Translations under genes and position numbers: made by a program
The notes under the pieces: generated by a model
Seen by the model: only the letters and a program-made list of their open reading frames with translations
What the model was told of the DNA's origin: nothing
Database searches by the model: none
Assembly: GCA_022842935.1 (NCBI GenBank)
Contig: JALHOP010000002.1
Location: forward strand, 310,001 to 374,000
Source of the DNA: Myxococcota bacterium
GTDB taxonomy: Bacteria; Myxococcota; XYA12-FULL-58-9; JALHOP01
Length of the DNA stretch: 64,000 bases
Reading direction: 5' to 3'
In this document: piece after piece, positions 55,327 through 61,453 of the stretch
Layout of the letters: each line of letters opens with the position of its first letter
Numbering within the stretch: the first letter of the stretch is position 1

Positions 55327-58300
55327 ATGAACCAGCGAATCGATGATCTGGCCCGTGTTGCGACGCGCACTCCCCTCCAAACAGCCGAGCTCCCCGTCAG
55401 CAAAGGAGAGCTGGTCGCCAATGCGCCGCGCCCCGTCGTGCAGAGCGGTCCCTTCAAGGGTCTCGACGCCATCGACGTCGAGGCAGCGACGCTCAACCGC
55501 AAGAAGTGGATTGGTATCGACCCGGTGACGAAAAACGAGCGGCCGCCGACCGTGGCGGGCTCGCTTCTGCGACGGCTGCTCACCGGTGTCGCACGCGGTA
55601 TCTTCGCGACACGCTACGACGTGTCGGTCACGAAAGACGACAAGGTCTCCGAAGACGTGGCACTGCGCGGCCCCATCAAGGGCGCGCTGGTTCTGCTCAC
55701 TCCCCATACCGGTCTCGACGACCCGGCGGTCGTGTACGCGAGGATCGCGCCGTTCTTGCCGTGTCGTCCGGTGGGAACCGAGGGCTTGTTCACGCAGCCG
55801 GGTCTCAAGGACATCATGCGCTCGATCAGCGCGCTGCCGGTGCCTATCAGTGACAGTCCGCTCGGAGTCAAAGACGAGATCAATCTACTCGCGGTCCAGA
55901 TTACGAGCGCCATGCGGCGCGGCGAAAACGTCGGTCTGCACCCGAGCGGCCGTCTCATCCACGGCAACAACGAGCTCATCGGATCAAACTCGCTCGTGCA
56001 GCGCGTCCTCGAGCTCATGCCCGAGTCGCGCCTCATCAGCGTCAACACGATCGGCATGGGCGGCAGTGAGTTCACCCGCGCGTTCAACGGCGGCAAGCAG
56101 GCCAACATGGGCAAAGGAGCCAAAGCGCTCCTCGACGCGGCCAAGCACAACCTGACCCACCCGTGGCAGACGGGCTTTCGCCTCTTCAAAGCGCGCCGCG
56201 AGGTCGACATCGAGGTCCGCGACGTCACCGAGACGTTCAAGGCGGGACGCTCGACGGTCGAGCAGAACCGAACCCTCGAGGCGCTTGCCGACCGACCGCA
56301 CCCGGTGTTTGGCGGCCCCAATCCCAACATTCACGTGCCCGCGCGCGGCGATGACCGCTCCGGCGTACACGTGTACACTCTAGAAAAGACAGCAGGGCCG
56401 TCGGCCAGCAACGTCGTCATCGACCCGGCCGCGATCGCGACCATCGAAGACCAGGTGCGCGCACACATCGCACGCCTCGCCAAGACGGACCCGTCGAAGC
56501 TCGAGCACACGCACAGGCTCAGCGACTTGAACCTCGACAGCCTCATGCTCAACAACGACGTCATGTTGTGGGTGAACAAGACGTTCGACCGCAACTTCAT
56601 CACCCCCGAGGGCTTCGTCACGGTGCAAGACGTGATTGACGGCGCCACGGGCGTGCTCTCACCGATCGCCGGTATCGAGTTCCGCGAGGTGAGCGAGGCC
56701 TTCAAGCTGCAAGCAGCGAGCGGCGGCCTGTCCGCGATACCGGCCGAAGCACGCAGCACCGTCGACGCCTTCATCAAGCAGGTGCTCGCGAACCCCAAGC
56801 GTGTCATCGCGGTCGACGAGGTGATCGGCGAATACACCTACGAAGATCTCGCGGTCCTCGTTTCCTTGATTCGGCCGGACATCGCCAAGATCCAAGGAAA
56901 TCGCGTCGGATTGCTCTTCCCGAACTCGGTCATGAGCACCGCCGTGCAACTCGCGCTCGCCTTCGAAGGCAAGTCGTGCGCGATGCTCAACGCACAGTGG
57001 AACGACCAGCAAGGGACCTCGGCCATGAATCTCGCCGGGGTCGACGCCATCCTGACTGCTCAGGGCGCAGTTCGCGCTCTCAAGGGAAAAAAGGAGCGCG
57101 AAGACGCGGAGCGCGTGCAGAAGGGTCAGCTCACCCAGGCGCAGGTCGACAGCGACCCCTCCAATACGCCGTTCCCGAGCATCGAAGAGAAGTTCCTCGT
57201 GGTCGACAACTACCTGCGCGAGTTGCCGCTCCTGCGCGTGCTGGCCGACGGCAAGCTCCGCAAGGGCAAGATGCTCCGCCGGCTCGTCGCTGACGCGACC
57301 AAGCTCGATAGCGCGGGCGAGATCGCGGCGCTCTTCACCAGCGGCTCGAGCGGCAACCCCAAGGGTATCGCCTACCGCCACGAGCAGGTCATGCAGAGCG
57401 CCAAAGCCCTGGCCAAAGCGTTCGACCTACAGAAGAACGACGTGCTCCTGCATCTCGCACCGAGCTTCCATCTCGTCGGCTTCACGGCCGGCAACATGGC
57501 GACGATGATGGGCGTCGCCTCGGTCAACGTGCCGAACCCACAGCTTGCCGCCATAGCGGCCGAGCTCGGCAAGATCCGTCAGGCGACCATCGTCGTCGGG
57601 ACCCCCTCGTTGCTCAACGCTCTCGCCAAGGCAGCGGGCACGAGTGGACTGTCGCACTTGAAACGCATTGTCGTCGGCGCCGAGGCATTGACCCCGGAGA
57701 TCGAGGCCAACCTGCGCAAGGCAGCACCCTCGGCACAGATTATCCAGGGCTACGGCATGACCGAGACGGGCGTGACGTTCGTCGAGCGCTTCGACCCCAA
57801 GAACCCGAGCGACCGCAGCATCGGTGAGCCGCTCGAAGGGGTCGACTACAAGATCGTCAGCTCCGATGATCACACGCGCGAAGTCGCGCAGGGCGAGCCG
57901 GGCATCCTTGTGGTGCGCGGCCCCGCCGTTGTGACGAGTGAGCGTGGCTTCATGGGCAAGGTGCCGAGTGACGCCTTCGCGACCGTCGGCGGCGTCGAAT
58001 ACTTCGTCACCGGCGACATCGTGCGCGATAAGGTCGTGAAAGACCCGGCTGGGGTCGACCGCAAGGTCGTCCACTTCATGGGGCGCGCGAGCCGCTTCTC
58101 GAAGATCAACGGCGAGCGCATCGGCCACGACGTCGTCGAAGCGCCCATTGCGGCGCTCATGCCCGAGCCGCGCGACGGCGGCCTGCGCGCTTTCGTGGTC
58201 GAAGGCGTGGAGAACAGCGCTGGTCAACCGACGCTCGTCGCCTACGTGGTACCAGGCCGCGATAGCGGAGGTAAGCCGGTCGACGCAGAGGGCAGGTCGC

Positions 58301-58479
58301 TCACATACGAGCGTGTGCGCGACACCTTGTCGTCGACGTTCCGCGGCGACCCGAAGTTCAACGTCGCCGAGGTCCGCTTGGTGAACAAGATCGAGCTGCT
58401 TGGCACCGGCAAGGTCGCGCTTTCGCTCTACCAGAAGGCGGGCAAGCTCGCGCACGACGGTGAGGTCCTCAAGCTGTGA
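55327..58479 (+). CDS. Acyltransferase-ACP-AMP ligase fusion
   Basis: 1050 residues from ATG 55327 (an in-frame ATG at 55234 would add 31 residues). Three parts: a PlsC-like acyltransferase (about 80-300) with H127-TGLD-D132 as the H-x4-D motif and HPSGR (205-209) in place of the usual PEG block; an acyl carrier domain (about 365-450) with phosphopantetheine serine S405 in LNLDSLM; and an AMP-forming ligase (about 470-1040) with the P-loop TSGSSGNPKG (671-680), GYGMTETG (808-815), a TGD block and LGTGK near the end. Acyl loading by the ligase, carriage on the ACP and transfer by the acyltransferase would fit. Similar in logic to E. coli Aas, which lacks the ACP. Confidence 0.83.
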   Translation: MNQRIDDLARVATRTPLQTAELPVSKGELVANAPRPVVQSGPFKGLDAIDVEAATLNRKKWIGIDPVTKNERPPTVAGSLLRRLLTGVARGIFATRYDVSVTKDDKVSEDVALRGPIKGALVLLTPHTGLDDPAVVYARIAPFLPCRPVGTEGLFTQPGLKDIMRSISALPVPISDSPLGVKDEINLLAVQITSAMRRGENVGLHPSGRLIHGNNELIGSNSLVQRVLELMPESRLISVNTIGMGGSEFTRAFNGGKQANMGKGAKALLDAAKHNLTHPWQTGFRLFKARREVDIEVRDVTETFKAGRSTVEQNRTLEALADRPHPVFGGPNPNIHVPARGDDRSGVHVYTLEKTAGPSASNVVIDPAAIATIEDQVRAHIARLAKTDPSKLEHTHRLSDLNLDSLMLNNDVMLWVNKTFDRNFITPEGFVTVQDVIDGATGVLSPIAGIEFREVSEAFKLQAASGGLSAIPAEARSTVDAFIKQVLANPKRVIAVDEVIGEYTYEDLAVLVSLIRPDIAKIQGNRVGLLFPNSVMSTAVQLALAFEGKSCAMLNAQWNDQQGTSAMNLAGVDAILTAQGAVRALKGKKEREDAERVQKGQLTQAQVDSDPSNTPFPSIEEKFLVVDNYLRELPLLRVLADGKLRKGKMLRRLVADATKLDSAGEIAALFTSGSSGNPKGIAYRHEQVMQSAKALAKAFDLQKNDVLLHLAPSFHLVGFTAGNMATMMGVASVNVPNPQLAAIAAELGKIRQATIVVGTPSLLNALAKAAGTSGLSHLKRIVVGAEALTPEIEANLRKAAPSAQIIQGYGMTETGVTFVERFDPKNPSDRSIGEPLEGVDYKIVSSDDHTREVAQGEPGILVVRGPAVVTSERGFMGKVPSDAFATVGGVEYFVTGDIVRDKVVKDPAGVDRKVVHFMGRASRFSKINGERIGHDVVEAPIAALMPEPRDGGLRAFVVEGVENSAGQPTLVAYVVPGRDSGGKPVDAEGRSLTYERVRDTLSSTFRGDPKFNVAEVRLVNKIELLGTGKVALSLYQKAGKLAHDGEVLKL

Positions 58480-58586
58480 CGCAGCGGGGCGGGCACGACT
58501 GGGCGTTTTTGAGACACGTCCACGCCACTGCCCGCGGCGCTGGCACGTCTAGACTTCTCGCTTCTCCGTCATGTACGCACGCGCGC

Positions 58587-59381
58587 ATGGCAGTGCCCCC
58601 TGTTGTTCGCAGTATCGCCGTCGTCGCCCTCGCGGCAGTCTTGGCGTGTTCTCGCGCCGAACCGGCGCCTCCTGCAGCCGATGAGGACGATGTTTCATCG
58701 CCTCTCGTCCTTGGGATCGTGGTGAACCACGGCGTGACACCTGAGCTCATCCGCGGTTGGCCGCTCGTTGTTCGCGCTGTCGCCGCCCTCGACGCCGACA
58801 CAGAGCAAGCCATTGCCCTCGGCGACGACACGCTCTCCTTGCGTTTCGTGAGCCTCGACGGCGCCGCCCAGGACTGGGCCCTGCGCAAGGTGGGCGGCGA
58901 CGAGCCGAACCGCGCTCTCGACGCCACGACACCACGCGCCGAGGCGGTGTTCGTCGCTGACGCCGCTCAGACGACATCATACGCGCTCGGACCGTACCGT
59001 GCCGAGCTCGCTTGGGGTAACGCGACTTACGCGCTCGATGTGACCGTGGTCGATCCACCGTCGCTCGCCGGGGCCGAGGGCTTCGCGGCGCGCCTTGCCA
59101 AGACGTCTCTCGAGATCGAAGCGCTCCTCGCAGACGACAGGACCGCCGATGCTGTCGCCATCGCGGACATGGCGCTCGCTGTCGATCCCGGATCGATCGC
59201 CTTGCTCAACTGGGCAGGCGCCGCCCTCGTCGCAGCGAAGCGCCCCGTCGAGGCGCTGGCGGTGACGAGCACCGCGATCGACCTCTATCGCAGTCAGGTC
59301 CCGACTCCTGACGAGCCCCCAGTCATCGCCCTGCACGTGCAACAACAAGCGCTCGATCAGATCCTCGGGGTCTCGCCATGA
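58587..59381 (+). CDS. Lipoprotein with TPR-like segment
   Basis: 264 residues from ATG 58587; the frame opens earlier at 58476 but that part is not signal-like. Lipobox VLAC at about residue 21. A beta-rich domain (about 45-165: LVLGIVVNHGVTPELIRGWPLVVRAV) is followed by a helical segment (about 175-235: TSLEIEALLADDRTADAVAIADMALAVDPGSIALLNWAGAALVAAKRPVEAL) resembling one or two TPR repeats. The downstream metallopeptidase begins inside its stop codon (ATGATG), so the two are coupled. Function unknown, perhaps a partner of the peptidase. Confidence 0.75.
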   Translation: MAVPPVVRSIAVVALAAVLACSRAEPAPPAADEDDVSSPLVLGIVVNHGVTPELIRGWPLVVRAVAALDADTEQAIALGDDTLSLRFVSLDGAAQDWALRKVGGDEPNRALDATTPRAEAVFVADAAQTTSYALGPYRAELAWGNATYALDVTVVDPPSLAGAEGFAARLAKTSLEIEALLADDRTADAVAIADMALAVDPGSIALLNWAGAALVAAKRPVEALAVTSTAIDLYRSQVPTPDEPPVIALHVQQQALDQILGVSP

Positions 59382-61453
59382 TGCGCCCCACCGCTCTCGT
59401 CGTCATGGTCGTACTCGGCTGCGCAAGCCTCGCCCACGCTCAATCCGATGCAATCAAAGAGGTCGAGCGTTGGCGGCTGAACTTCACGTTCCGGGAGACT
59501 GGCAGCTATAGCTCTGACACCGCCAACTGGACGGTAAACCAAGTGGCAAGCGGCTCGGTCGTGCTCTCACGCAAGCCGGGGCGAACCAACGTCTTCGTGG
59601 GCACACCGACGATCTCCGTGCACTACGTGTTCAGCGGCGTCATCAGCGCGGGCGAGAACTGCACCTTCCGGGTCGACATCGACTCGAACGCATCCCCCGA
59701 CGTGGTCACCGACTCCGCGTCGCTCACGTTTTTCGCCGGTGGGTACCAATTTCAGACCGGCAACACGAGCCTCTACGTGCCCCGGCGCAGGACCACCACG
59801 TGCCCCACCGAAGAGGTGCAGGAGAGCATTTCAGGCAAGAGCTGGTCGCACTACATCGCTGACGACCTTCCCTACCCCGCAAGCGGCACGACGCTCTCCG
59901 GCACCTACGTTTCGTCAGAGCCCATCGACCCCGAGTCACCGACCACCGAGGAGGCGACGCTCGTAACGGGTAACTGGGAGTGGACCATCGTGCCCGACAC
60001 CGTCGAGGAGCTGCGCCTCGAAATCGATGAGTCGTCGGACTACGAGGCCTGGACACCACGCGCCAATCCCGACGGCAGCCCGGGCAGCGAGCTGACCATC
60101 GACGCGGCGATCGTGACCCAATCGGGTCGCGCGCCCGCAGTCCAGGCGCGCCGCTGGGAATGGCGGCTGGTGCAAACGTCGCGCGAGCCCGGTATCGCCA
60201 TGAACTTCCCGCCGAACGCGAGTGACACGCGGCCCGACCTCGAGCTCGCCGCACCCGAAGGGACAGTCGCGCAGATCGGCGCCGATGCACAGACCTTGGA
60301 GCGTTTTGTGGTGAGCGGCACGAGCGACGCGGTGGTGGTGCGTTCGTTCGACTGGGGAGCCTGGGCGACCCTCGAGGTCGTCGTCACGCTCGAAGATGAA
60401 CGCACTCTGACCGGGGTGGCGAAGGTCACCGGGGGCAACGGCCTGAGGCTGCCCAAGCGGCCGAGCAGCTCCTACATCGCCGACGTCTGGAAGAGTGACA
60501 ACGGCGCAAGTGGGGCCGATGACGTCGACAACGAAGCCGAACCGCCTGGTGATGGCACGGCTGGCGATGGGCTGTCGCTCTATCAAGAGTACCGCGGCTT
60601 CTACGAAAACGGCCGCCACGTGTTTGGCGCGCCACGAAAAAAAGACCTCTTCATCAAAGCCCCCGAGGCGGCGACGACGGGGGTCGCGCTCTTCAAACGC
60701 GCGAGCGGCATCGAGACGCACGCGCGACTGCGCGACGGCGAGCTTCCTGCCTCGCGCGTCATCAACAGCAATCGCGCGCAGGGTCCTGGCGCGACCGAGC
60801 AGCATGCACTCGTCGTGACCATGGGCGGGGCACAGGCTCCACAGCAAGGTGGCACGGCCCGCAGCACCTTGGGTCAAGCGGTCGGTGGCCCCGGAAATCC
60901 CAAGATGGTGAGCGAGATCCGCATCATGGGCGACTGGGCAGTCTTGCCTGCCGCAAAGCGCGACCAGGTGGTGGCCCATGAGCTGTTGCATGGCGTCAAC
61001 GTGTGGCACCACGGCGAACAGGACCGGCTCGTCGCCTGGGGCCTAGACGACGAGAACGAGCTCGCGGAGCTGAGTGGACCGGGGTCTACGACCAAAATTC
61101 AGGTCTTCGCCGAGCCCAACATCGACGTGACCGAGACCATCGTCGCGGCCCTGACCGGCCCAACCCAGTTCTTCCTCACTTGGCTGGGTGTCGAGTCGGG
61201 GCAACACGCCGGTCACGACCAGTGCGTCATGCGCTACTTCAGCTCGCAGGCGTACGTCAGCAGCGAGGACACGACCATCCGCTTTCGCGTTCAAGAGGCA
61301 CCGGGCGCAACCCTTTGCACCGCGTCCACCGGGACCGGGGTGAACGAGCCCGGACGTAATCCTCAGGCACGGTACAGCGACGCGGCTGCCGGCCGGGGCA
61401 ACTGCAAGGCACAGGTTCTGGTCACTGACGCCGCCCAGGCACCGAGCCGCTAG
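59378..61453 (+). CDS. Secreted HExxHxxNxxH metallopeptidase-like protein
   Basis: 691 residues, first ATG 59378 overlapping the upstream stop. A signal peptide (about 1-21, ALVVMVVLGCASLAHAQ) precedes a long beta-rich region. The zinc site lies at 534-545, VAHELLHGVNVWHHG, with H534, E535, H538 and H544 in the spacing of metzincins, except that the usual Gly is N541. A motif GDGLSLYQEYRGF at about 396-408 precedes it. The combination suggests a secreted peptidase with a divergent active site. Convergent with the ABC ATPase, 20 bases away. Confidence 0.78.
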   Translation: MMRPTALVVMVVLGCASLAHAQSDAIKEVERWRLNFTFRETGSYSSDTANWTVNQVASGSVVLSRKPGRTNVFVGTPTISVHYVFSGVISAGENCTFRVDIDSNASPDVVTDSASLTFFAGGYQFQTGNTSLYVPRRRTTTCPTEEVQESISGKSWSHYIADDLPYPASGTTLSGTYVSSEPIDPESPTTEEATLVTGNWEWTIVPDTVEELRLEIDESSDYEAWTPRANPDGSPGSELTIDAAIVTQSGRAPAVQARRWEWRLVQTSREPGIAMNFPPNASDTRPDLELAAPEGTVAQIGADAQTLERFVVSGTSDAVVVRSFDWGAWATLEVVVTLEDERTLTGVAKVTGGNGLRLPKRPSSSYIADVWKSDNGASGADDVDNEAEPPGDGTAGDGLSLYQEYRGFYENGRHVFGAPRKKDLFIKAPEAATTGVALFKRASGIETHARLRDGELPASRVINSNRAQGPGATEQHALVVTMGGAQAPQQGGTARSTLGQAVGGPGNPKMVSEIRIMGDWAVLPAAKRDQVVAHELLHGVNVWHHGEQDRLVAWGLDDENELAELSGPGSTTKIQVFAEPNIDVTETIVAALTGPTQFFLTWLGVESGQHAGHDQCVMRYFSSQAYVSSEDTTIRFRVQEAPGATLCTASTGTGVNEPGRNPQARYSDAAAGRGNCKAQVLVTDAAQAPSR

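Follow-up and report, generated by a model that had tools for sequence, protein, structure and literature searches.

The main finding of this study is that the order acyltransferase–acyl carrier protein (ACP)–AMP ligase within a single chain is a real and recurrent architecture: the 1050-residue protein P0001 is no one-off, and has 17 full-length relatives. Judged by its sequence, P0001 belongs to a little-described family of Aas type, kin to the LplT-Aas fusions, and is divergent within it. It probably serves as a divergent Aas-type enzyme of lysolipid acylation that carries its ACP in the chain, with a lysophospholipid as the most likely acceptor. In the route that we envisage, the ligase would convert a free fatty acid and ATP into fatty acyl-AMP and attach the acyl group to the phosphopantetheine arm on S405. 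Once charged, the ACP would swing to the N-terminal acyltransferase, where H127 and D132 would catalyse acyl transfer to a lysolipid hydroxyl, most likely that of a lysophospholipid, on the inner side of the cytoplasmic membrane. In this way, free fatty acids and lysolipids would be recycled into membrane lipid, bypassing the soluble ACP or CoA pool. We infer this sequence of reactions, the loading in cis and the acceptor, and it is the acceptor that is least certain.

The gene lies towards the end of the window, by which we mean the whole 64,000-nucleotide stretch that was analysed, and its features are collected in Table 1. The frame has an ATG start and a TGA stop; it is open upstream of this ATG to 55072, so alternative starts are possible, and a clear ribosome site is absent at every candidate start. 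The G+C contents of the three codon positions (0.66/0.44/0.85) are those usual for coding DNA here; a search for promoters near the gene gave no match. The neighbours tested, from 46.4 to 63.8 kb, encode Ada, PEP mutase, a beta-helix protein, a TonB-dependent receptor and an amino acid ABC transporter among others; they give no functional hint, and none was recognised as a lipid gene, as the preliminary description of this locus had said. Downstream, a probable lipoprotein gene (58476–59381) that has no Pfam match precedes a gene at 59378..61453 (+), whose product contains HELLHGVNVWHHG, a zinc-peptidase-like motif (HExxHxxxxxH), and likewise has no Pfam match.

Table 1. Features of the P0001 gene, with positions in the window
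Feature	Position	Strand	Evidence
Whole gene P0001, acyltransferase–ACP–AMP ligase	55327..58479	+	Open frame, coding-type GC3, domain matches, 17 full-length relatives
N-terminal extension, residues 1–83	55327..55575	+	Alignment; model confidence low over first ~30 residues
PlsC/Aas-like acyltransferase, residues about 84–340	55576..56346	+	PF01553 below cut-off, BLASTP to Aas, family profile
Block I HTGLDD, H127 and D132 (H-x4-D)	55705..55722	+	H127 in 22/22, D132 in 21/22
Block III PSGR, residues 206–209, where PEG is expected	55942..55953	+	P-[S/A]-G in 21/22
GMGGS, residues 243–247; family motif GLWGS minus tryptophan	56053..56067	+	W in 20/22
ACP domain, residues 366–442, four helices	56422..56652	+	hhalign to E. 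coli AcpP, PDB ACPs, predicted helices
Asp-Ser-Leu, residues 404–406; S405 the expected phosphopantetheine site	56536..56544	+	D404 and S405 in 22/22
Aas-type acyl-ACP ligase, residues about 471–1045	56737..58461	+	PF00501, BLASTP, profile, structure match
ATP P-loop TSGSSGNPKG, residues 671–680	57337..57366	+	Column-by-column alignment with family TSGSExxPKA
C-terminal adenylation lysine K1029 (LGTGK)	58411..58413	+	Lys in 18/18 proteins with full ligase

Domain searches, relatives and a structural model all bear out the proposal, made earlier from the DNA, of a PlsC-like acyltransferase, an ACP with a DSL serine and an AMP ligase in one 1050-residue chain. The ligase starts at about residue 470. 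Conservation was counted residue by residue over 22 aligned AT-ACP proteins, an alignment in which the catalytic residues of all three P0001 domains are intact and the N-terminal extension is common to P0001 and its paralogue P0002 only. An AlphaFold2 model computed from 22 sequences (pLDDT 79.8, pTM 0.79) replaced an earlier three-sequence prediction that was useless (pLDDT 39.7); its Foldseek and VIA match lists are occupied by the ligase domain. For this domain, PF00501 matches with an E value of 1.9e-48, BLASTP to Aas gives 8e-30, the family ligase profile aligns with Aas end to end (E 1e-77), and the model matches ANL enzymes with a Z score of 38. An insertion near residues 587–611 is missing in most relatives. 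The other two domains score below their Pfam cut-offs in P0001 (PF01553 15.4 bits, in the expected place at contig position 365630–365971 in a genome scan; PF00550 12.2 bits), which, to judge from the relatives, is an effect of divergence: those proteins reach the PP-binding and AMP-binding cut-offs and, in most of the cases tested, that for Acyltransferase as well. The ACP that had been placed at residues 365–450 is upheld in this way despite its low PF00550 score, and also by the family ACP profile, with which hhalign pairs E. coli AcpP at 96.6% (E 7e-10) and which also finds PDB entries of ACPs, at E values from 2e-12. The model places helices at 367–385, 398–401, 405–420 and 433–441, S405 being the residue that opens the helix after the DSL loop. 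Two PPTase-like matches above cut-off in the genome could arm this ACP.

The acyltransferase domain deserves separate discussion, since its block III had been taken as a possible sign of an unusual acceptor. P0001 aligns with residues 1–108 of Aas by BLASTP (E 6e-4), and hhalign pairs the family profile with the transferase domain of Aas at 95.1% (E 3e-8), YPaGrl lying over FPEGRI. The two motif observations made at the outset were both correct: H-x4-D is intact, and HPSGR (residues 205–209) stands in place of PEG, P0001 thus departing from the canonical FPEG of the Aas and LplT-Aas enzymes. The conclusion drawn from them is not supported on this ground, because P-[S/A]-G is a hallmark of the family, from which the paralogue alone departs among the AT-ACP-ligase proteins, and HPSGR is therefore by itself no sign of an odd acceptor. 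Proteins fused to LplT-like transporters or coupled to them in operons have it too, and for these an ordinary lysophospholipid would be the expected acceptor. Downstream of block III, E216 is Glu in 21 of the 22 aligned proteins and Asp in the remaining one, and R291 and N314 are also kept in P0001. The tryptophan of the family motif GLWGS is replaced by G in P0001 and by N in the paralogue.

The relatives on which these statements depend come mostly from another phylum. In the phylum to which a MAG deposited under the name Planctomycetaceae belongs, an AT-ACP profile gave matches across both domains in 18 of 294 sampled genomes, one of which runs off its contig and three of which are AT-ACP proteins of 363–368 residues that have no ligase. 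The AT-ACP pair thus recurs alone (L090, L091 and L093, in genomes G667, G612 and G703, respectively); G667 also has a separate AMP ligase, encoded ~2.4 kb from the AT-ACP gene on the opposite strand. Within the window's own phylum, three other genomes have AT-ACP relatives: G170 and G171, picked up with the acyltransferase-ACP profile, and G005, from the same order as the P0001 genome, with an 879-residue homologue. The contig of this homologue has a G+C of about 0.41, equal to that of the other sampled contigs of its genome, and so does not look like a contaminant. Among 398 genomes from the phylum of Boseongicola aestuarii, which we take to be Pseudomonadota, 14 match in the acyltransferase and none through the ACP. 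No relative was found by a P0001 peptide scan of the genome contigs collection or by an alignment-based scan of viral contigs; plasmid records gave, among the matches listed for P0001, hits to the ligase part only, none over 80% of the query, and no hit to the AT-ACP part of P0003. Six genome-contig matches to a DNA pattern for P-x-G-R-x4-NNE were rejected as chance by translation and tblastn, and these loci were used solely as centres for the phylum-wide searches.

The family is also associated with LplT-like transporters. Seven of the 17 full-length relatives have an LplT/MFS-like transporter, either fused in front of the acyltransferase or encoded immediately upstream with a 4-nt overlap. 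The lack of a lipid gene nearby, which holds for P0001, thus fails as a trait of the family. Five relatives carry the MFS-like domain as an N-terminal fusion, above the Pfam MFS_1 cut-off in three of them and assigned by resemblance in the other two, one of which (P0019) gave no Pfam MFS match. In the remaining two cases (G637 and G613), a separate LplT-like MFS gene overlaps the AT-ACP-ligase gene; the G637 transporter matches the NCBIfam models for LplT (E 1e-18) and for LplT-Aas fusions (E 5e-54), both below curated cut-offs. In E. coli, LplT brings lysophospholipids to Aas and binds the Aas transferase domain (PMC11416262). The transporter link in the family therefore points to re-acylation of lysophospholipids.

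A tree of the ligases places P0001, Aas and the AT-ACP-ligase proteins together with support of 100/100, apart from ElbD and from the other adenylating enzymes, those of the same genome among them. P0001 is the longest branch (3.99 changes per site), and its exact place inside the Aas clade is accordingly best regarded as unsure. The AT-ACP-ligase proteins form a single group with a support of 71/100, so that the ACP may have been inserted once or on several occasions. Identity between P0001 and family members other than the paralogue is 21–27%, which, together with the length of its branch, suggests that the function of P0001 may have drifted.

How far such drift may have gone can be considered from the rest of the genome (6.28 Mb, 46 contigs). 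The paralogue P0002, encoded on contig 7 at about 71–73 kb (L002:1459-3834, minus strand) and divergently from a subtilase gene, is about 39–40% identical to P0001. It has kept the acyltransferase histidine and the ACP serine, and its ligase has lost the C-terminus and the ATP P-loop (VQHDAAGAHS). A doubtful reading is that P0001 and P0002 form a sub-family with the same machinery that no longer serves lysophospholipid repair and acylates a different lipid or some other hydroxyl or amine acceptor. The extension shared by these two proteins alone, the loss of the GLWGS tryptophan, the very long branch of P0001 and the lack of a lipid or LplT gene nearby would fit, and P0001's own acceptor could indeed be unusual on such grounds. 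The lysolipid job may also be done elsewhere, since the genome encodes PlsB-like and PlsC enzymes and an MFS-acyltransferase fusion with FPEG. This fusion (L026:3328-5160, minus strand, contig 7) is a 611-residue protein with a canonical FPEGK and no ligase, and is similar to the front half of the LplT-Aas fusions (PRK08633, E 3.8e-88). However, H-x4-D, P-[S/A]-G, E216, R291 and N314 are all kept in P0001, relaxed selection also yields long branches, and the same MFS-acyltransferase fusion could supply a flippase. A stand-alone LplT was not found in the genome with two queries, one of them with a positive control, yet both missed the known MFS part of this fusion, and a genome without a flippase is consequently not proven. 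It seems unlikely that P0001 is a self-contained, fast-diverged system for lipid acylation that loads its own ACP, has dropped its flippase partner and has an acceptor outside the common lysophospholipids. Even less probable is that P0001 is a relic that decays like its paralogue and yields no active enzyme: it is fast-evolving and P0002 has lost parts of its ligase, but 1050 codons are open with a GC3 of 0.85 and the catalytic motifs of three domains are intact. We favour the reading of P0001 as an Aas-type enzyme for lysolipids.

The simplest reading of the family as a whole would be an Aas whose ACP is permanently attached: the partner that is separately produced and tightly bound in E. coli Aas has seemingly become part of the chain. 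First, these proteins offer a testable case of intermediate channelling inside one membrane-repair protein, and in some members flippase, acyltransferase, carrier and ligase are found in a single chain of about 1300 residues. Second, a single polypeptide is handy for structural study of the acyl hand-over from ligase to transferase in Aas. Third, the family-wide change from PEG to P-[S/A]-G in PlsC-type acyltransferases, with a conserved Glu eight residues past the glycine, invites questions as to catalysis or the binding of the acceptor.

We found no description of the AT-ACP-ligase order in the open literature searched, most subscription papers being outside its reach, and no characterised homologue with this order. 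ElbD of Myxococcus xanthus also has an acyl ligase, an ACP and an acyltransferase in one polypeptide, and its ACP and ligase activity has been demonstrated in vitro (PMC9131029). That P0001 is an ElbD-like enzyme of ether-lipid synthesis is nevertheless highly improbable, and we rejected its membership of the ElbD group: ElbD has a reductase in front, which P0001 lacks, and a different domain order, as seen in the homologue from the same genome, and the P0001 ligase groups with Aas. That homologue (L023:4947-9452, minus strand) is a 1502-residue protein with the order reductase-ligase-ACP-acyltransferase and the motif FPEGTRS, so that the genome has an ElbD-like protein of its own. It is followed by an NAD-epimerase-like gene (L023:3935-5008, minus strand), as in the Myxococcus elb operon, and this pair suggests that the organism may make ether lipids.

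The LplT-Aas fusions (PRK08633 and PRK06814) and P0001 are of one ligase and acyltransferase group, and five P0001 relatives share the fusion to an MFS-like domain. P0001 differs in having no transporter domain and in scoring far under the curated cut-offs, with 196 of 1221 bits for PRK08633, its best NCBIfam match, and 98 of 886 for PRK08043; none of the relatives tested reaches an NCBIfam equivalog cut-off either. Judging by which of its positions are matched, the PRK08633 profile does not seem to leave space for an ACP between its acyltransferase and ligase parts. E. coli Aas itself (PRK08043) is colinear with P0001, with an N-terminal PlsC-like acyltransferase and a C-terminal acyl-ACP ligase, but is shorter (719 residues), has FPEG in block III and shows a gap at the ACP position when aligned to the family. 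The earlier remark that limits E. coli Aas to the first and last parts holds for the chain; it leaves aside that Aas has a high-affinity ACP site and uses the acyl-ACP bound there in trans (PMC13170283). Since Aas binds its ACP in this way, the built-in ACP of P0001 and its relatives can be seen as a known complex in covalent form.
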